Positions 17,791 to 44,465 of a stretch of DNA of 64,000 nt are shown here, one piece after another; position 1 is the first letter of the stretch, and the number at the start of each line of letters is the position of its first letter. The translations under genes were made by a program, and so were the position numbers. The stretch spans positions 1 to 64,000 of the forward strand of contig VHCG01000003.1 in assembly GCA_016871805.1 (NCBI GenBank), in the 5' to 3' direction. The stretch comes from Verrucomicrobiota bacterium (GTDB lineage Bacteria > Verrucomicrobiota > Verrucomicrobiia > Limisphaerales > UBA9464). The notes under the pieces were generated by a model, which did not search any database, had not been told where the DNA came from, and saw only the letters and a list, made by a program, of their open reading frames with translations.

Positions 17791-18263
17791 GGTTCTTCAC
17801 CGGTGGGTGGACCAGTGCTCTGGGCCGCCGGGTGCCTCGGAGGCCTCCACCCTCCCCAAGCCCAACCTCTCCCACACCCCAGACCTCCCTGGCCTCCATC
17901 CCGGGCCTGCCACCACCGTCGCCAGATCCAGGGATGCAGAGGGAACTCATACGGGGACGCGGAGGCGCGGAGGAAAGGCGGGCGAGATCAGGACAGAGGC
18001 GATGCCGGTAGGGCTGTACTCCGTCACGGCCCCATCTCGATCCGCAGCGGGTGGCGCACCCGTGAAGGGGGACGGGAAGGACCCACGTATCAGAGGATTC
18101 CGGCTAGGCCTATGGATCCGTCAAACCCATCGCGGGGAAGATGGGGACCTCTCCAGGCCTCCAGTCCACCACACCACACCGACCCACTGTCCCCACGGGT
18201 CGGCACCGCCTCACAGGGTGGGTGCTCCCGCACCCAGTGATGCAGGGCACTGCATCACCCACC
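17791..18263. repeat. Interspersed hairpin-rich repeat, copy B
   Basis: Module I (17791-17834) matches copy A nearly base for base over ggttcttcaccggtgg and tggaccagtgctctgggcc. A copy of the end module in reverse orientation lies at 17943-17973, and 18002-18075 matches 11600-11674 of copy A. Module II (18219-18258) has stem TGGGTGC-tccc-GCACCCA, where copy A has TGGGCGC and GCGCCCA: both arms changed together. The second hairpin is GTGATGCA-gggcac-TGCATCAC. The gap 17738-18320 holds no gene. Module order differs from copies A and E. Confidence 0.75.
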
Positions 18264-18320
18264 GCCCTGCACTCGATCACACGCCCGCTGACGCACCGAT
18301 GGGGTTCCTCTGCCCCGTGG

Positions 18321-20375: not shown

Positions 20376-21188
20376 TCAGGATTGACCGAGTCGGCACGAT
20401 TTGTCGGCGGCGGCGCGGACGGCGGCGATCAGGGCCGCACGAACGCCACCCTTCTCCAGCTCATGGACTCCCTCGATGGTGGTTCCTCCGGGACTACAGA
20501 CGGCATCCTTGAGGGCGCCGGGGTGTTGACCGGTCTCCAGGACCAGACGGGCCGCACCCAGCAGCGTCTGGGCCGCCAGCCGCTGGGCGATGTCGCGCGG
20601 GAGGCCCGCCGCGACGCCGCCATCGGCAAGAGCCTCGATCATGAGGAATCCGTAGGCGGGCCCGCTTCCGCTGAGTCCGGTCACCGCATCCAGCAGGCGT
20701 TCCTTCACCTTGAGGGCGAGGCCGACGCTGCCCAGGAGACGTTGCGCGAGGACCCCATCCTCGGCCGTCGCCACCGAACCCAGCGCGTAGGCCGAGGCCG
20801 AGGCCCCGACGAGCGCGGGTGTGTTCGGCATGACCCGGATCACCCGCTGTCCCGGAGCCGCCGACTCCAGGGAGGCGATCGAGACCCCGGCCGCGATCGA
20901 CAGGATCCGATGCCGCTGGGGATCGAGCACGTCCCGGACGTCATGGAGCACGCCCGCCACCTGGTCCGGCTTCACAGCCACAATGAGGACGTCGGCCACA
21001 GCGGCAACCTCGCGGTTGCCGGGGAGCGAGCGCCCGCCCGTCGCGTTCGAGAAGGACAGGGCCGCTGCCGGGACGACGTCGCTCGCGAAGAGCCGGGGGG
21101 CATCGACCAGTCCGGCCTTCAGAAATCCCTGGGCGAGGGCCGTCGCCATCTTGCCGGCTCCCAGGAAGCCGATGCTTGGATTGGACAT
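20376..21188 (-). CDS. proC: Pyrroline-5-carboxylate reductase
   Basis: The 270-residue protein is ProC, the last enzyme of proline synthesis (NAD(P)H reduction of pyrroline-5-carboxylate). It opens with the Rossmann motif IGFLGAGKMATALAQGF, has VLIVAVKPDQV, RVIRVMPNTPALVGASA, the substrate loop AVTGLSGSGPAYGFLMIEA and SPGGTTIEGVHELEKGGVRAA. Length matches the family. It is in a minus-strand run and closely followed by the AI-2E permease gene, a pairing without obvious metabolic meaning. Confidence 0.95.
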   Translation of the reverse strand: MSNPSIGFLGAGKMATALAQGFLKAGLVDAPRLFASDVVPAAALSFSNATGGRSLPGNREVAAVADVLIVAVKPDQVAGVLHDVRDVLDPQRHRILSIAAGVSIASLESAAPGQRVIRVMPNTPALVGASASAYALGSVATAEDGVLAQRLLGSVGLALKVKERLLDAVTGLSGSGPAYGFLMIEALADGGVAAGLPRDIAQRLAAQTLLGAARLVLETGQHPGALKDAVCSPGGTTIEGVHELEKGGVRAALIAAVRAAADKSCRLGQS

Positions 21189-21267
21189 TGACGGGAGTGG
21201 TAGCAACGCCGAGCGCATCGACCAAGCGAAACCACGTCCCGCGGGAGGCCGACCCGGTCCCGCACCC

Positions 21268-22383
21268 TCATCCAACCCGACACCACGGCAGACAGTCCAT
21301 GACCGCCTCCCGAAGCCGCGACACCTCCCCCGTGGTGTGGGCGGAGGACAACGCAAACCGGAAGAACCGGTCGGCCGGGCCCTGGGAGTAGCGGATCCAC
21401 GACGGGTAGATTCCCGCGGCCTGGAGCCGTCGCCCGATGCGACGGGTGGCCCGCGGATCCTGGGGTACAAGGACCAAGGTTGGCCCGATGGCATGGCGTC
21501 GGGGATCCGAATCAGGGAAGACCTCCCGCGCCTGCTGGATCCGTGTGGCCAGGGTCCTGCGCCACCCGGTCCCACGCTCCTCGAGCAACCGGAGGGCGGC
21601 ACGCGCCCCGGCCACCCAGGGCAAGGGAGGCGGCGTATTGCCCTGGAAACAGCGTCCCTGCTCCACCACCCGGTCCCGGAACGTCTTCGATCCAAGGACG
21701 AAGCCGCCGTAGCATCCAAAGGCCTTGCTCAGGGTTCCGGTGAGGAGGACCCGCGGATCCCGGACTCCCTGGACCTCCAGAGCCCCGCGGCCTTTCCGTC
21801 CCAGGGTTCCGACACCGTGGGCATCGTCGACCAGCAGCCACCCCTCCTCGGGCAGAACGGAGAGGAGCTCCGACACCGGTGCCAGGGATCCGTCGAGGGG
21901 GGACAACCCGTTCGTCATCACGAGAGGTGTCCCAGGTTTCCGCGGGCGTCCGAGTTGCTTCTGCAGGTCGTCGACGGAGTCGAAGTCGGTCGCGGAAACA
22001 CCCAGCAGATCCGCCGCATCGCGCAGACAACCGTGGGCCGTCCGCGCCCGGTGCACCTGCCCGATCGAGCCGGCCAGTCCCTGCACCGCGACCAGCGGTG
22101 CAAGATACCCGGACGAGGTCAGCACCGCCGAGGGAAACCGGAACATCCGGGCCAGATCCCGCTCCAGTCCAGCATACAACGGATGGTTGCCCGTCGTGGT
22201 CCGACTTGCCGCCACATTGGGGCCGAGGGTGTCGACCGCCCGACGGATCACCCCGCGGATCCCGCGATTCCAGGACAGACGGAAGTAGTCGCTGCCCCCG
22301 AAATAAAGGAGCTCCCGCCCCCGCCACTCCACGGTGGTAGGAGCGATCTGGACGATCCCCGGACCTTCGTTCTCGGATCCCAT
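21268..22383 (-). CDS. PLP-dependent alpha-oxoamine synthase-like protein (BioF-related)
   Basis: The 371-residue protein is a fold-type-I PLP enzyme of the AONS/KBL family: GSDYFRLSWN, ASRTTTGNHPLYAGLERDLA, VDDAHGVGTLGRKGRG and the PLP Lys in TGTLSKAFGCYGGFV (Lys220), with RFALSSAHT near the end. Family members condense an amino acid with an acyl-CoA (BioF, KBL, SPT, HemA). The ASRTTTGNH and AHGVGTLGRKGRG motifs are close to BioF, but there are no other biotin genes nearby and the N-terminus is short, so the exact substrate is open. Start ATG 22383 is chosen over an upstream GTG. Confidence 0.8.
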   Translation of the reverse strand: MGSENEGPGIVQIAPTTVEWRGRELLYFGGSDYFRLSWNRGIRGVIRRAVDTLGPNVAASRTTTGNHPLYAGLERDLARMFRFPSAVLTSSGYLAPLVAVQGLAGSIGQVHRARTAHGCLRDAADLLGVSATDFDSVDDLQKQLGRPRKPGTPLVMTNGLSPLDGSLAPVSELLSVLPEEGWLLVDDAHGVGTLGRKGRGALEVQGVRDPRVLLTGTLSKAFGCYGGFVLGSKTFRDRVVEQGRCFQGNTPPPLPWVAGARAALRLLEERGTGWRRTLATRIQQAREVFPDSDPRRHAIGPTLVLVPQDPRATRRIGRRLQAAGIYPSWIRYSQGPADRFFRFALSSAHTTGEVSRLREAVMDCLPWCRVG

Positions 22384-36729: not shown

Positions 36730-36848
36730 CGGGCCCGTGAAGACAGATGGAATCCGCTGACACCCCAGAAGATCCCGTCTGGAGCAACCGATCAGCCACA
36801 CCTTCGCGGGTCTAGATGGGGACGCAACGGAGTGCGTTCCCTACCCAA

Positions 36849-36983
36849 TGGGCGCTCCCACGCGCCGTGAGGCAGGGCACTGCTTCACCCACCAACGCCC
36901 CACCCACCGCCTGCCGCCCCTGCCTTCCCCGCCTCCCTCTCTCCGGTCTTCCTCCGCGTCTCCGCGTCGCCGCGTGAGTCCCC
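36849..36983 (+). repeat. Interspersed hairpin-rich repeat, copy D (modules II and III)
   Basis: Module II at 36849-36888 reads tgggcgctcccacgcgcc then gtgaggcagggcactgcttc and ac; the second hairpin GTGAGGCA-gggcac-TGCTTCAC has one G-T pair, and the first stem is slightly broken. Module III (ctccgcgtctccgcgtcgcc, then gcgtgagtcccc) lies at 36952-36983, the same orientation and order as in copy E. Module I is absent. The 276-bp gap 36730-37005 has no gene. Confidence 0.7.
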
Positions 36984-37005
36984 CTCCGCGTGTCTTCAAG
37001 GCGCC

Positions 37006-40000
37006 CTAGAGCGTCGGCGGCACCCTCTTCGCCTTGCGCCACGGACGCGACAGGCCACCGGAGCTGAGGTTTCTCCACGCCCACTTAAGCCATGACAGCA
37101 GGGCGAACGCCAGCCACAGCGCCCAGAACAGCATCAGGATCCGGTACCACCAGATCGAGACCGACACCACCACCGTCGTCGGCAGCGCGGTCGACGACCG
37201 ATCAAGATACCAACGCAGCACCGTGCGACTGGAATCGTTGCCCAGAATGAACATCTCCGGGCTTCCGAGCAGTCCTTCGCCCACCGCGTAGACCAGCACC
37301 CCCAAGGCCGCGGCGGTCATGAGCACCACCCCGAGCTGGACAAGATTGTAGAGCCACGGACCCGTCTCCTGGAACGCCGACCTCCCGCGCCACCGGACGA
37401 GAAACAGCCAGGCGATCACCACCGCCGCCGCCGCCAACGGAACCTGCGTGAGCCCGAGGGCCAGGAGCAGCCATTGCCAGGTCCGAAGGGGCGACTTCGG
37501 CAGCCGTCCCAGCGCGATCGCGGCGAGCAGCGAGCAGACGAGGATGCCCCAGAACCGGACCGCAGGACCCCGGAGCGGACCCCAGGTCAGCAACACCCAC
37601 CGGTTGTCGGGCACCTTCAACACCGTTGTGATGTTGGCGCTGTCGACCGGCAGGCCCACCGCCCCGGAACCCGCATGGAATCCCAGATCGGCACCCACCT
37701 TCCACGAGAGGTCGATCGTCTGCTCGCCGGGCCTCAACGGGACCACCACCTTGCGACCCTCCTTCCGTACCGGGATTCCCTTCCCGGCATGGAGCAATCC
37801 GGTCACCTCCGCACCCTCGGGCAGTTCGATCAGAAAGTCCTCTCCCAGACTGCTCCGGACCGACAGGTTCAGCGTGGAGGTCCGCTGTCGGGATCCCACG
37901 CTGACCTCATGCGTCACACGGTCCACCGTGCGGGTCGCACCCGCCACGGCCGTCGGATGCGTCAGATCGAGGCGAACCGATTCCCCGGGCCACGGATGCC
38001 ACACCGGCAGCAGATCCACCACACCGGCATCGAAGACCGGCGCCAGTCCGGTAAGGGCGACGTTCCAGATCGGGGACGCGCGCAGCTCCCATTGCTCCAC
38101 CCAGGTGTCCGACGGGCGCGTGGACAGCGTCAGCACATTGCTGACCGAGAGCCCGCTGTCCCAGGAGGTGGACGTATCCTGGGCCCCGAGCCGCACCTCG
38201 ATGGCGCCTTCGACGACCGGGGCGTTGGCCGAAAGGACGTTCTCCCCGGGCAGCAGCGGGATCCGAAGGGCGAGGGCCTTGCCAGGGGGCGTGAGCCGGG
38301 TCACGACCGTCCGCACCTGAGCGACGAGACCCAGTTCGACCTGACGTCGCACCAGGGCAACCGACTGGACCTCCTGGCGCTCGTAGGTGGTCGTGGATCC
38401 GACGGACCGCTCCTGCGACACGAAGAGCACCTGCTGTTCCGGAACCCCGTCGTCCCGGATCCCGCTCACCGCCCATCCGGGAGCCTCCACCACGACCCGG
38501 CGTGGCTTGAGCCGGAAGGCCCACTCCCATTCGGACGCCGCCGGGACCAGGCCCTGCCACTGCACCCGATGGACGCCCGCCGGCAGGACGACCCACAGGA
38601 AGCCGTCGTCGCGCCGCAGCGCTGTTTCGGGCTGTCCATCCACCTGCACCGAGACCGGCGACCACGTGGGGAGACGTCCCGGCAGCGGCACCGCCACCCG
38701 CAACGCCGTGTGGATCTCGGCCTCCGCGGTGAGACGCCGACCCTCGACACGCAGCGACAAGCCCGGGATTTCGGCCGCATTTGGGAACGCGTCGGGGACC
38801 TCGAGGACCCGTTCGCGGAGCCTCTCCAGGATGGCGGCATCGGGAATGACCGCGGCCACCGGGGCCTCATCCGCCTCGACACGGGGCGGCTGTGCGAGAC
38901 CGACCCCAAGCAGCACGGCGAGCACGGCGGCCCGCGGGGCGATGTCGGCCAGCCCCGTCGACGACGGCCGACCGCGGCGCAGCAGGACGGCGGCGAGGGC
39001 GAGGATCAGTCCGACCCGGAGCACGGTGAGGGCGCGCTCGATTCCGATGGGAATCAGCACCGGGCGGACCTGCTGGGCGGCCTGGACCGGTCCATTCCAA
39101 CCAAAGCTCACCGCGCGCCAGGTCCATTCCGGGACGCCCGGTCCGGTCTGGATCCGCGCCTCCGCCTCATAGAGCAGGTTCGCCATGACACCATTCCTCT
39201 GGAGGGGTTCCACGGAGGAGGAGGGAATCCTGGAAATCAGCCCGTAGCGTCGGGTCAGGACCGGATCCATGCGGTTGCCGGCGCTGGCCTCCCCCCTTTC
39301 GGCATCGGCGAGCGGCACCTCCTTGGCCGCAGTATCCGACGGGGCGGAAGGCGGCACCGCAGGTGAGGCGAGCGGCGACAGCTCGGGAGCCGGCTGGAAG
39401 TGCCGTGCATCGCGCCCCAGCCATTCCAGCTGGGGATAGATCGCCTGCTGCACCTGGCGTCCGATGAACGGCGCCAGCAGGAAGACGAGCGTCAGGAGGG
39501 CCGCCCATTTCGTCAGCTGGATGACACGATGGAACATTCCGGAACGGACCACCCGCTCGAGCGCCAACGGGATGAGGAGCAATAGCCACGTGTACCGCGG
39601 CGCCCCCGGCTCGTGGAAGGACAGTCCGTACGCGAGGAATGCCAGGACCGCCGGCCCCCAGCCCCACATCCGGAAGACCGTCACGGTGAAGATCAGAAGC
39701 AGGAAGACATCGAGCAGCGTCCAGGCCGTCAGCCAGTCGCCCCGGACCCAGTCGGCACCGAACAGCGCCAGCAGCCGCCAGCCAGGCGGCAGGTGGAGTG
39801 TCACCTGGAGCGACTCCGCATCCGATTGCCACCCCGTCGCGGGAAACCGCCTCGGACGATCCAGCCGCCCGGTCGCCTCGAGATCCAGGTTCCGGGTCCG
39901 CACCTCGACTCCGGCCGCACCGGTCCGGGGGTTGAGCGTGACGAGCTGTCCCTGTCCGCCGATGCGGACCGAACCGAGATCCTCCCCCTCCGCAACATCG

Positions 40001-41187
40001 AGCCGCCACACCTGCTGCATCGCGCCCCGGACGCGATCCCGGAACGTGAGCCCGTTGCCGTCCCCGTCGAGCCACCATTCGCGGCTGATCGCCAATCCCG
40101 GAGGCTTCTGATCCCCCATGCCGCGCATCCGCTCCACCAGACGGAACGGCTTCGCGACGTCCCAGCGATACACCGGGAACCGCCGCCACGCCTCGGGATA
40201 GGTGGTCTGGGAGACGTCGACCGAGGGGGCATCGACGACCTCCACCACGCGCAGCTCCGGACGAGAGGCAAAGCCGACCCATTGGTCGGGCGTGGCCGTG
40301 GCCACACCAGCCGGATACTGCCACGACGTGGGATTGTCGGAACGGAACGAGACAAGACGGATTGTCCACTTGCCCGGACGCACCTGGGCCTTGAGACGAC
40401 CCTGGTCGTCGACCGCGACCGAAATCGGGCTCACCACCGACGCCAGATGCCACCCCTCGGGAACGACCGCACCGAGACTCTCCTCGCGACTCTTGCCCGA
40501 CACCGTCAGCTCGACCTCCTGTCGGAGCCACATCGGGATGCCGTCCTCGACCAGCGAATAGACCTTCGTGGCGAGGTAGTTCTTCTCATCGGTCCCCGCC
40601 GCGCCATCGCGCTTGAGCCAGAGCTGGCCATCGGCATCCCAGGCGGGATTCGGCACCGGCTGGCCAAGCAGGGTCAGGGTGAGCACCCCGATCTCGGGAG
40701 GGATCCGGAGACGCTGCGGCATCTGGTTCCAGCGGAAGGATCCCGTCAGACGATGTCGTCCGGGTTGACCCCACACTCTGTTCCCTCCGGCCACCAGGTG
40801 CACGGCCGGTGCCGAGTCGTGCTCCAGGACGGCGAGCGGGGCCGGTTTGACGTTCCCCACCGCGGCGGAGGTGTCCTCGACCCCGACAGGCCAGACGTCA
40901 CCGCCTCCCGGCAGCGGCACCCAGGTCTCGTCATACACGAGGACGTCCAGGGTGAACCGGGCCCCGTCCGCCGTGACCGCCAGCTCCAGGGTCGAGGGCC
41001 AGAAGCACCGATGGGTCTTGGGATCCGAGTAAGGGGGCGGGCAATTCCGATGCGCGTCCCCCCACGTGGCCCAGGGGATCCAAGGGCGCAGCACCTCCGG
41101 GATGCGGTCCCAGCCTGAGGCGGCATCCACACGCAGACCGATCAGCAGAAGGAGAACGAGGGCCTTGGAGAGGGACGAGGGGATCAT
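37006..41187 (-). CDS. Very large multi-pass membrane protein, unrecognised
   Basis: The 1393-residue product begins with a signal peptide (SLSKALVLLLLIGLRVDAASG), then a ~450-residue exported region rich in beta strands, a first membrane cluster at about residues 478-580 (TLLDVFLLLIFTVTVF; LLLLIPLALERVV; LTKWAALLTLVFLLAP), a second at about 720-770, a second exported region of about 430 residues, and a C-terminal cluster of four or five membrane segments from about 1209. I recognise no catalytic motif or known domain. The ATG at 41187 is chosen because the 120 upstream residues look like shadow. It is divergent from the serine hydrolase gene. Its function is unknown. Confidence 0.75.
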   Translation of the reverse strand: MIPSSLSKALVLLLLIGLRVDAASGWDRIPEVLRPWIPWATWGDAHRNCPPPYSDPKTHRCFWPSTLELAVTADGARFTLDVLVYDETWVPLPGGGDVWPVGVEDTSAAVGNVKPAPLAVLEHDSAPAVHLVAGGNRVWGQPGRHRLTGSFRWNQMPQRLRIPPEIGVLTLTLLGQPVPNPAWDADGQLWLKRDGAAGTDEKNYLATKVYSLVEDGIPMWLRQEVELTVSGKSREESLGAVVPEGWHLASVVSPISVAVDDQGRLKAQVRPGKWTIRLVSFRSDNPTSWQYPAGVATATPDQWVGFASRPELRVVEVVDAPSVDVSQTTYPEAWRRFPVYRWDVAKPFRLVERMRGMGDQKPPGLAISREWWLDGDGNGLTFRDRVRGAMQQVWRLDVAEGEDLGSVRIGGQGQLVTLNPRTGAAGVEVRTRNLDLEATGRLDRPRRFPATGWQSDAESLQVTLHLPPGWRLLALFGADWVRGDWLTAWTLLDVFLLLIFTVTVFRMWGWGPAVLAFLAYGLSFHEPGAPRYTWLLLLIPLALERVVRSGMFHRVIQLTKWAALLTLVFLLAPFIGRQVQQAIYPQLEWLGRDARHFQPAPELSPLASPAVPPSAPSDTAAKEVPLADAERGEASAGNRMDPVLTRRYGLISRIPSSSVEPLQRNGVMANLLYEAEARIQTGPGVPEWTWRAVSFGWNGPVQAAQQVRPVLIPIGIERALTVLRVGLILALAAVLLRRGRPSSTGLADIAPRAAVLAVLLGVGLAQPPRVEADEAPVAAVIPDAAILERLRERVLEVPDAFPNAAEIPGLSLRVEGRRLTAEAEIHTALRVAVPLPGRLPTWSPVSVQVDGQPETALRRDDGFLWVVLPAGVHRVQWQGLVPAASEWEWAFRLKPRRVVVEAPGWAVSGIRDDGVPEQQVLFVSQERSVGSTTTYERQEVQSVALVRRQVELGLVAQVRTVVTRLTPPGKALALRIPLLPGENVLSANAPVVEGAIEVRLGAQDTSTSWDSGLSVSNVLTLSTRPSDTWVEQWELRASPIWNVALTGLAPVFDAGVVDLLPVWHPWPGESVRLDLTHPTAVAGATRTVDRVTHEVSVGSRQRTSTLNLSVRSSLGEDFLIELPEGAEVTGLLHAGKGIPVRKEGRKVVVPLRPGEQTIDLSWKVGADLGFHAGSGAVGLPVDSANITTVLKVPDNRWVLLTWGPLRGPAVRFWGILVCSLLAAIALGRLPKSPLRTWQWLLLALGLTQVPLAAAAVVIAWLFLVRWRGRSAFQETGPWLYNLVQLGVVLMTAAALGVLVYAVGEGLLGSPEMFILGNDSSRTVLRWYLDRSSTALPTTVVVSVSIWWYRILMLFWALWLAFALLSWLKWAWRNLSSGGLSRPWRKAKRVPPTL

Positions 41188-41305
41188 GGAAGGAAGGCCG
41201 AAGCCGTGTGGAGAGTTAAGCGGATTCCGAGGGCGTGGAAACCCCCAAGTCGTGAATCCCAGGCACGTGACATCCCCGGGGTGATTTGGGAGCCTTCTCC
41301 ATCCC

Positions 41306-42628
41306 ATGAACCGTCCCCGTCCCTCCCGATTTCCCGCCCAGTGCGTCTCCCTCGCGGCCCTGCTCGCCCTGGCTGCCGGGGATCTCACGGCCCAGACCCG
41401 GTCCGTGCGCCACTCCCCTCCGCTGCGCGAGGCAGCACCTCGCTCGGTCGGCCTCTCACCAGAGCGCCTCGAGCGGATCGATGCGATGTGCACGGAGGCC
41501 CTCCGCGACGGCAAGATCCCGGGCGTCGTGGCCCTCGTCGCCCGCAAGGGGAAGATCGTCTACCACAAGGCGTTCGGGTCGGCCGACACCACCACGGGTC
41601 GGGCACTGCGCCCGGACGACATCTTCCGGATCGCGTCCCAGACCAAGGCGATCACCGCGACCGCTGTGATGATGCTCTGGGAGGAGGGACGGTTCCGTCT
41701 GGATGACCCAATCTCGAAGTGGATCCCGGAGTTCAAGAACCCGCAGGTCCTGAGGTCCTTTGACGAGAAGAACGGAACCTGGACCGCCGAGCCGGCAGGC
41801 CAGGAGATCACAATCCGCCACCTGCTCACCCACACCTCGGGTCTGGGCTACGGGGTGATCGATGGCGACGCGCGGTTCCGACAGATGTACGCTAAGGCGG
41901 GCGTGGTCGACCTGTTCACGACCGAACCGGTCACGATCGGCGAGAGCGTGCGTCGCCTGGCCAAGCTTCCCCTGCACCACAAGCCGGGCGAGAAGTTCAC
42001 CTACAGCGAGGGGCTCGACGTCCTCGGGTATTTCATCGAGGTCGTGTCGGGCCAGACCTTCGACGCGTTCCTCCAGACCCGCCTGTTCGGGCCACTCGGT
42101 ATGAAGGACACGGGATTCTACCTGCCGGCGGAGAAGGCTGGCCGATTGGTGTCCGTCCAGAAGCCGGAGAACGGCGGCTGGGTGCGCTACCCGGTCACCT
42201 TCTACGATCCGAACTATCCCATCCAGGGCGCCAAGTCGTTCTTCTCGGGCGGCGCGGGCCTCTGCAGCACGGCCCGCGACTACGCGACCTTCCTGCAGAT
42301 GTACCTGAATGGCGGGGAACTCAACGGGGTGCGGATCCTGAGCCGGACCACCGTGGACCTGATCCTGGGCGAGCAGGTCGCGCAGAACCTGTTCGGAGGA
42401 CCGAACAAGTACTACGGGCTGGCGTTCGGGGTGCTGACCCCGAGGGGACAGGCCGCCGGAGGCGAGGGCAGCGCGGGCACCTTCGATTGGGGTGGCTACT
42501 TCAACACCCAGTACTTCGCCGATCCCAAGGAAGGAACGATCGGCATCCTCATGAAGCAGACCCAGGGCGGGAACGACGACACCTCGTGGCGGTTCCGCCA
42601 GCTGGTCGGACAGACGGTCGACGACTGA
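41306..42628 (+). CDS. Exported serine hydrolase, beta-lactamase/class C family
   Basis: The 440-residue protein has a signal peptide (QCVSLAALLALAAGDLTAQ) and a class-C-type serine hydrolase domain (PF00144). The SxxK nucleophile is in FRIASQTKAITATAV, the second catalytic motif (normally YxN) is in FTYSEGLDVLGYF, and HLLTHTSGLGYG is the family's substrate-pocket helix. SxxK enzymes of this kind are esterases, D-aminopeptidases or carboxypeptidases rather than antibiotic-resistance enzymes. The end GTIGILMKQTQGG is typical of planctomycete-type members. A 118-bp gap with divergent promoters separates it from the membrane protein gene. Confidence 0.88.
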   Translation: MNRPRPSRFPAQCVSLAALLALAAGDLTAQTRSVRHSPPLREAAPRSVGLSPERLERIDAMCTEALRDGKIPGVVALVARKGKIVYHKAFGSADTTTGRALRPDDIFRIASQTKAITATAVMMLWEEGRFRLDDPISKWIPEFKNPQVLRSFDEKNGTWTAEPAGQEITIRHLLTHTSGLGYGVIDGDARFRQMYAKAGVVDLFTTEPVTIGESVRRLAKLPLHHKPGEKFTYSEGLDVLGYFIEVVSGQTFDAFLQTRLFGPLGMKDTGFYLPAEKAGRLVSVQKPENGGWVRYPVTFYDPNYPIQGAKSFFSGGAGLCSTARDYATFLQMYLNGGELNGVRILSRTTVDLILGEQVAQNLFGGPNKYYGLAFGVLTPRGQAAGGEGSAGTFDWGGYFNTQYFADPKEGTIGILMKQTQGGNDDTSWRFRQLVGQTVDD

Positions 42629-43114: not shown

Positions 43115-44465
43115 TCAACGCTGCTGGACTCTCTTGGATTGGGCACGCCCCGATGCGGGCACCATGCCTTCGCTTCCGCCGATGATCAGCCCCACCGAGA
43201 CGAGAAAGCCGAGGATGAGGGGCAGCGCGGCCAGGGGACCGACCTCGTCAACCGCCTCCGGGATCAGGGTCTGCGCCACGAGGGCCAGCACGGCACCGCC
43301 TGCAAAGGCCTCGGCCACGACGAGCAGCGGAGAAAAGTGGGCTCCAATGGTGAGGTGACCCAGGACCGCAGCCAAGCCCGCCAGGAGTGTCACGGCGAGC
43401 CAGGACAGGAGGATCCGTCTCCGGGAGAACCCCGCCCGCAGGAGCATCGACGCACTGGTCGACCCCTCGGGGACATCCGCGATGAAGATGCCCACCTCCA
43501 GCGGGAGCGAGAACTCATGCCAGCCCACGAAGTTGCCCCCGATGACGAACGCCGCCGGGATGACGTCGAGGAAGTTGCCGAGCAGGATCGCCGCCCCTGC
43601 AGAATTCCTGGAGTGGCTCAGCTCCTCGTCGAGCTCCCGCTGGGTGACCGTTCGACGTGCTGCGAGGCAACCGAAAGCCAGCGGCGGACGGCCCGGGTCT
43701 CGTGGTGCAGGTTCGCGAGCGCCCGCTCGTGGCCGAGTCGCTCGAGGGCCGCGGACAAAGCCGGGTTCCTCCGGACGAACTCCACGAAATCCTCCCGTCC
43801 CATCCGGAGAAGCTCGAGCGTCTTCATCGCTTCCACGGTCGCATTTCTGGGCTCGCCGGAAAGCAGGGCCATTTCACCAAAGGAATCCCCCGGTCCCAGC
43901 GAGGCCACCCGTTTCCGATCCCCGTCCTGCTCCAACAAGACCTCGGCACGCCCGGAGACCACCAGATACAGGGCGTCGCCGGCATCCCCCTGCCGGAACA
44001 CGGTCCGTCCGGACGGCACCCGCACCTCCGTCACCCGATCCGCGAACATCCCGACCTGCTCCGGAGGCAGCTGCCCCAGCACCGGGGACCGGGAAAAGCT
44101 CTCCAGGATCCCACGGATCCGTTGCCGTTTCTCGAGCTCCAGCGACTGCCGCAGACGGAACTCGCTCCGGAAGTTGCCACCCATGCGGGCCAGGAGACGG
44201 GTCCCGATCAGATAGACCGTGGCCCCGGCCACGAATCCACCGGCGACATGCAGCCAGCCGCCAAACCGGCTGTAGCCATGCCTCATCAGGACCCAGCGGA
44301 CTCGAAGGCCAGCTCGATGCTGACCGCGGCGATCAGGGCCCCGGCTCCGAAGGCAAGGACCCGACCGAGGACGCGACGCGACAGTCCATACCGCATCCCC
44401 AGCCAGGTCCCGAGCGGACCGCCGGAGGTCACCAGCAGTCCGAGGAGCAGCACGTCCAACACCAT
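43115..44465 (-). pseudogene. ZIP-family metal transporter with embedded cyclic-nucleotide-binding domain, split into three frames
   Basis: Read along the minus strand, three adjacent frames add up to one ZIP transporter. 44465-44286 encodes two membrane segments (VLLLGLLVTSGGPLGTWLG and VLAFGAGALIAAVSIELAF) and stops. The frame of 44286-43618 opens with a third membrane segment followed by a cyclic-nucleotide-binding domain. From about 43650 a third frame without a proper start codon carries the rest: AILLGNFLDVIPAAFVIGG, IFIADVPEGSTSAS, LAVTLLAGLAAVLGHLTIG and VLALVAQTLIPEA. The joints are TGATG (44288-44284) and the TGA at 43620. Joined length is about 450 residues. The original protein would import zinc or another divalent metal, possibly gated by a nucleotide. 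It is either broken in nature or by assembly error. Confidence 0.65.
43618..44286 (-). CDS. Open frame within the split ZIP gene: membrane segment plus cNMP-binding domain
   Basis: This 222-residue frame encodes one membrane helix (WLHVAGGFVAGATVYLIGTRLL) and a Crp/CAP-type cyclic-nucleotide-binding domain: RTVFRQGDAGDALYLVVSG, ASLGPGDSFGEMALL and the phosphate-binding stretch SGEPRNATV with its Arg. No DNA-binding helix-turn-helix follows. As a separate gene it would be a membrane-tethered nucleotide sensor, but the flanking ZIP halves in other frames make it more likely the middle of a single transporter. ATG overlaps the upstream stop as TGATG. Confidence 0.7.
   Translation of the reverse strand: MRHGYSRFGGWLHVAGGFVAGATVYLIGTRLLARMGGNFRSEFRLRQSLELEKRQRIRGILESFSRSPVLGQLPPEQVGMFADRVTEVRVPSGRTVFRQGDAGDALYLVVSGRAEVLLEQDGDRKRVASLGPGDSFGEMALLSGEPRNATVEAMKTLELLRMGREDFVEFVRRNPALSAALERLGHERALANLHHETRAVRRWLSVASQHVERSPSGSSTRS

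Follow-up and report, generated by a model that had tools for sequence, protein, structure and literature searches.

In BbZIP, the ZIP transporter of Bordetella bronchiseptica, the loop between transmembrane helices TM3 and TM4 is cytoplasmic and serves as an intracellular sensor that blocks the release of metal, autoinhibiting the carrier when cytosolic zinc rises (PMC10256678). ZIP carriers are thus known to be controlled by metal via the TM3-TM4 loop, and a cyclic-nucleotide sensor at this position would constitute a different kind of control. Cyclic-nucleotide control of a carrier through a cyclic-nucleotide-binding domain (CNBD) has a precedent in the sperm Na+/H+ exchanger SLC9C1 (PMC6052114). 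The window that we analysed, a stretch of 64,000 nucleotides from a Verrucomicrobiota bacterium (contig VHCG01000003.1, positions 1 to 64,000), contains on the minus strand, from 44465 to 43115, three successive frames that together amount to one ZIP transporter with a CNBD between TM3 and TM4. The features of the locus are listed here, where L015 is the corresponding locus of a sister species of the same genus, and L016 and L017 are distant one-frame fusions from a Bacteroidia and a Planctomycetota metagenome-assembled genome, respectively.

44289..44465, minus strand: piece 1, ZIP-domain helices TM1 and TM2, aligning with TM1-TM2 of intact fusions
44286..44294, minus strand: frame break 1, a one-base indel relative to the sister (near 44292, with a gap at 44293 in the DNA alignment with L015), which creates TGATG
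43621..44286, minus strand: piece 2, TM3, a linker helix and the CNBD, from PF00027 and the alignment with L016 and L017
43765..44025, minus strand: CNBD core, residues 88-174 of piece 2, Pfam match to PF00027
43840..43881, minus strand: phosphate-binding cassette (PBC) FGEMALLSGEPRNA, in which the cyclic-nucleotide-contacting Glu and Arg are both present
43643..43650, minus strand: frame break 2, a one-base indel relative to the sister (gap at 43648 in the DNA alignment with L015)
43118..43642, minus strand: piece 3, ZIP-domain helices TM4-TM8, from ORF translation, Pfam and homologs
43550..43567, minus strand: TM4 metal motif DVIPAA, in which alignment with homologs indicates that the ligand Glu is replaced by Ala

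The first ORF (44465-44286, 59 aa) has its own stop, which shares TGATG with the next ATG at 44286; the second (44286-43618, 222 aa) encodes TM3 and the CNBD, and overlaps the third frame in a CTGA at 43618. All three lie on the minus strand, and the arrangement of frames and overlaps is as the first-pass annotation of this DNA had described it. The third frame is open from 43873 to 43115, and the first ATG, GTG or TTG after its upstream stop is GTG 43528, located downstream of TM4, so that to speak of three ORFs exaggerates the coding potential of the third frame. The joined frames are not the product of chance, given that they are 92.5% identical to the sister species, are 24-37% identical to one-frame homologs over about 415 columns, and show the dN/dS of a protein in the family frame (see below).

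Piece 2 matches PF00027 with an E value of 3.4e-25 (88.3 bits against a cut-off of 27.5). The cassette FGEMALLSGEPRNA is common to the window and the sister and retains the PBC residues FGE and PR, the role of the Arg being named here as in PMC2246266. The match of piece 3 to PF02535 is weak (E 7e-4; 19.3 bits, below the curated cut-off of 35.1), and the ZIP fold of the window's own pieces, TM1-3 plus TM4-8, was matched by alignment alone; among intact homologs, L016 scores 38.1 bits, above that cut-off, and L017 18.6 bits, below it. Membership in TIGR03896 (cyc_nuc_ocin) was ruled out, since only the CNBD region matches and the score of 48.9 bits falls short of the required 161 (L016 and L017 score 29.2 and 20.4, respectively). 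Matches reported by PADLOC (PycTIR and others) were likewise dismissed as similarity confined to the CNBD.

The ZIP-CNBD fusion is a real protein family. L016 (466 codons) and L017 (449 codons), which came from a scan of public genomes with piece 2, each contain TM1-TM3, the CNBD and TM4-TM8 in a single frame. The first-pass annotation had proposed a search for homologs with the full fusion, and a profile of L016 and L017, run on phylum samples around both genomes (296 and 294 genomes), brought the number of open single-frame fusions to 15 with L016 and L017 included (seven in the Bacteroidia-centred sample, eight in the Planctomycetota-centred one). Thirteen of these have a single CNBD and two (L115 and L125) have tandem CNBDs; in one more copy, L114, the frame does not include the first helices. 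In alignment A2, PF00027 is found in all 12 proteins and PF02535 in nine of them (E 0.01). The window shares the family's domain order, with the CNBD between TM3 and TM4, and differs from it in not being one open frame. A tree built on the fused columns places the window and sister with L016-type proteins, on a long branch. Since at least 15 other genomes carry the gene intact, the fusion defines a family that could be tested as second-messenger-controlled metal transporters.

Among Verrucomicrobiota, samples of 145 genomes (searched with TM4-TM8) and 387 genomes (searched with the fusion profile) yielded the fusion in the window's genus only. Searches found no second intact copy elsewhere in the window's genome, no fusion copy in the other two genomes of the genus and no full-length fusion in a plasmid collection, and the gene neighbourhoods of L016 and L017 offered no functional clue. 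ZIP relatives that have a short TM3-TM4 loop and no CNBD co-occur with the fusions, for example L003 in the same order. Homologs with independent ZIP and CNBD genes had been named beforehand as evidence against a fusion: stand-alone ZIPs such as L003 do exist, but the fused state is the normal one in the family. The cassettes of the tandem-CNBD proteins L115 and L125 and of L124, which has a single CNBD, are without the phosphate-binding Arg, and judging from their sequences may possibly bind other ligands or none.

An AlphaFold2 model of L016, made with 11 homologs (pLDDT 80.5, pTM 0.58), was compared with known structures by VIA-align. The top matches are eight BbZIP entries (Z 23.3-24.9, about 220-250 residues, starting at residues 1-4 and extending to 438), the best of which (Z 24.9, rmsd 3.1) covers 251 residues spanning 1-438, and the next are the CNBDs of HCN, SthK and MloK1 (Z 18-19, about residues 112-256). 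BbZIP matches across both halves with CNBD matches between them indicate a ZIP fold into whose TM3-TM4 loop a CNBD is inserted, although the pTM of 0.58 makes the orientation of the CNBD relative to the membrane domain unreliable in this model. When a stand-alone ZIP sequence was compared to the PDB by phmmer no match was found, although the structural comparison of the L016 model did match BbZIP. The model and the 15 one-frame homologs bear out the earlier suggestion that the pieces correspond to a single ZIP protein with a sensor in its TM3-TM4 loop.

Alignment of the DNA of the locus with that of the sister species (L015; G001 contig 322, SYEM01000044.1) indicated that the sister is in frame at both of the window's breaks; TGATG is absent from it, and it reads through the junction of frame break 1 in frame. 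The sister has lesions of its own: near L015:4230 its frame is broken by a single base, and at L015:4810-4812 it carries an in-frame TAG; at these places it is the window that is in frame. Lesions at different positions in the two species suggest that their common ancestor had one open frame. The pieces are under purifying selection in the family frame, in which dN/dS between window and sister is 0.12 (dS 0.42, dN 0.05), whereas the two wrong frames give 1.7 and 3.8. There is no clear relaxation in dN/dS, as is expected only if decay was very recent. Divergence is low in a patch at the gene's 5' end, which is unexceptional given that conservation is higher in other 350-bp stretches of the locus.

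The neighbouring genes (alpha/beta hydrolase, GH32, beta-lactamase-like and GGACT) align to the sister without a frameshift. The syntenic coding DNA compared comes to 22.4 kb, about 21 kb of which lies outside the ZIP-CNBD gene and contains one clearly uncompensated mid-gene frameshift, near 21237 and in the sister; the remaining gaps either form compensated pairs or fall close to the 5' end of frames read from stop to stop. This 1-nt gap lies in the window frame 20379-21728 (minus strand) and may represent decay, an error or a position outside the true gene. We note two other features of the window: a 1513-aa frame at 37006-41547 (minus strand) that is conserved in the sister, contains several stretches of hydrophobic residues and matches no Pfam family at E 1e-4, and segments 18001-18270 and 36730-36993, for which the sister genome has dozens of matching places at ~70-95% identity and which form a dispersed repeat family.

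As the broken state of the ZIP-CNBD gene in the window was the reason for choosing it, a fair comparison has to use the sister alone, in which two of the three clear lesions fall within 6% of the DNA compared. The chance of such clustering is about 1 in 100 by a rough estimate in which nonsense codons elsewhere were not tallied systematically. The clustering favours, and does not prove, separate recent decay over sequence error.

Where every other aligned member has the metal-ligand Glu of TM4, in most of them within DGIPES, both the window and the sister have Ala; P312 and E313 are among the invariant columns of alignment A2. By our reading of the motif this Glu would correspond to Glu181 of BbZIP. 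Glu181 belongs to metal site M1 (PMC10256678). The Glu of TM5 is retained in the window lineage, though TM5 differs otherwise, and the other members of the family keep DGIPES together with the TM5 NxPE and TM7 PEA motifs. The replacement of the TM4 Glu by Ala in both species suggests that in this lineage the loss of classical metal binding may have preceded that of the frame, and that the ZIP part was perhaps no classical transporter already when the frame was still whole. The protein of this lineage was nevertheless under constraint despite the loss of the TM4 Glu.

Taken together, the two frame breaks in the window and the two other lesions in the sister suggest that the gene is most likely a recent pseudogene in both species, with real decay the probable cause instead of sequence error. 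The opposite reading, that both genomes carry an intact gene encoding a working one-piece transporter and that the four lesions all arose as errors of assembly or sequencing, is one we find unlikely while granting it real weight: the sister is a metagenome-assembled genome, the window's assembly is fragmented (124 contigs), purifying selection is intact and the lesions are single-base events, but only one clearly uncompensated mid-gene frameshift occurs in the ~21 kb of other syntenic coding DNA, the sister has both a frameshift and a nonsense codon within 1.3 kb, and the lesion sites are not long homopolymers. Functional readings of the broken frames fare far worse. The first-pass annotation had thought coupled translation conceivable, with three subunits made separately and assembling into a split ZIP-CNBD transporter. 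Tight as the TGATG and CTGA overlaps are, the breaks fall at different positions in the two species, the sister lacks TGATG and is in frame across that junction, a product of the third frame started at GTG 43528 would miss TM4, and complete distant homologs use a single frame. We rejected this idea, which we regard as scarcely credible, because the third frame has no start before TM4 and the lesions are elsewhere in the sister. Programmed ribosomal frameshifting at two sites, giving a full-length protein, would account for purifying selection across the junctions; it too was rejected, as very improbable, since the sister's break positions differ and include a nonsense codon, and inspection by eye revealed no obvious slippery heptamer at either site.

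A different alternative concerns function instead of the frames, namely that the ZIP-fold part, at least in this genus, is a membrane anchor or receptor and the CNBD serves signalling. In its favour are the altered TM4 and TM5 alongside persistent purifying selection, but the retention of DGIPES, NxPE and PEA in other members and the match of an intact member's model to BbZIP over nearly the whole membrane domain make it improbable. On balance we consider it likely that the locus descends from a one-piece ZIP-CNBD transporter, nucleotide-gated when intact, that was inactivated recently and separately in two species.

On this reading of a one-piece transporter, the ancestor would have been a protein of about 435 aa, a ZIP-fold metal transporter with eight TM helices in which a CNBD replaces the cytoplasmic TM3-TM4 loop. 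In intact members the CNBD would most likely bind cAMP or cGMP, and the nucleotide-bound domain would shift the linker helices adjoining TM3 and TM4, altering the elevator movement of TM4-TM6 and thereby raising or lowering the flux of divalent metal. The CNBD might therefore be regarded as a nucleotide-operated counterpart of the autoinhibitory TM3-TM4 loop of BbZIP. A ligand is plausible, given that the PBC residues are retained and that the window's genome encodes a class III cyclase (E 4.7e-65) as well as several further proteins with a CNBD; gating by cAMP or cGMP, like the metal transported and the direction of flux, is inferred. Tentatively, we suggest that a family of ZIP-type carriers dispersed among bacteria could be gated directly by cyclic nucleotide via a CNBD standing in for the zinc-sensing TM3-TM4 loop, and that this genus could have lost first the metal site and later the frame.

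The interest of these findings lies in the family, the window's copy itself being most likely a pseudogene. Were the proposed gating to hold, the level of a second messenger, and not the level of metal alone, would set metal uptake, providing a direct link between signalling and uptake in bacteria and a parallel to SLC9C1 in another carrier fold. The family offers both soluble-domain and whole-transporter constructs for testing how an elevator carrier is gated. The two domains are well known separately, and their combination is apparently undescribed: in the open-access literature, to which our search was limited and which is therefore no proof of novelty, we found no paper describing a ZIP-CNBD fusion, and the words 'zinc' and 'Zip' are absent from the text of a survey of CNB domains (PMC2246266). 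We expect that sequence databases hold such fusion proteins already.

Each of the known systems resembles the family in part. The channels SthK, MloK1 and HCN have the closest solved CNBDs, but they are ion channels in which the CNBD follows the pore and is not inside a transporter loop. SLC9C1 differs in having another transporter fold and a voltage sensor and in belonging to animal sperm, and its CNBD is not known to occupy a TM3-TM4 loop. Stand-alone DGIPES ZIPs (L003, L116, L126 and plasmid matches annotated 'ZIP family zinc transporter') have the same TM helices and motifs, and the plasmid ZIPs among the matches listed are 41-52% identical to L016 over TM4-TM8, but in these stand-alone bacterial proteins the TM3-TM4 loop is short and without a CNBD. 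BbZIP (PDB 8ght, 5tsb), with the same ZIP arrangement and a regulatory cytoplasmic TM3-TM4 loop, shows 17% identity and differs in that a short, His-rich sensor of zinc forms its loop where the family has a folded CNBD, and in that, by motif, its TM4 ligand is His where the ZIP-CNBD family has Asp.
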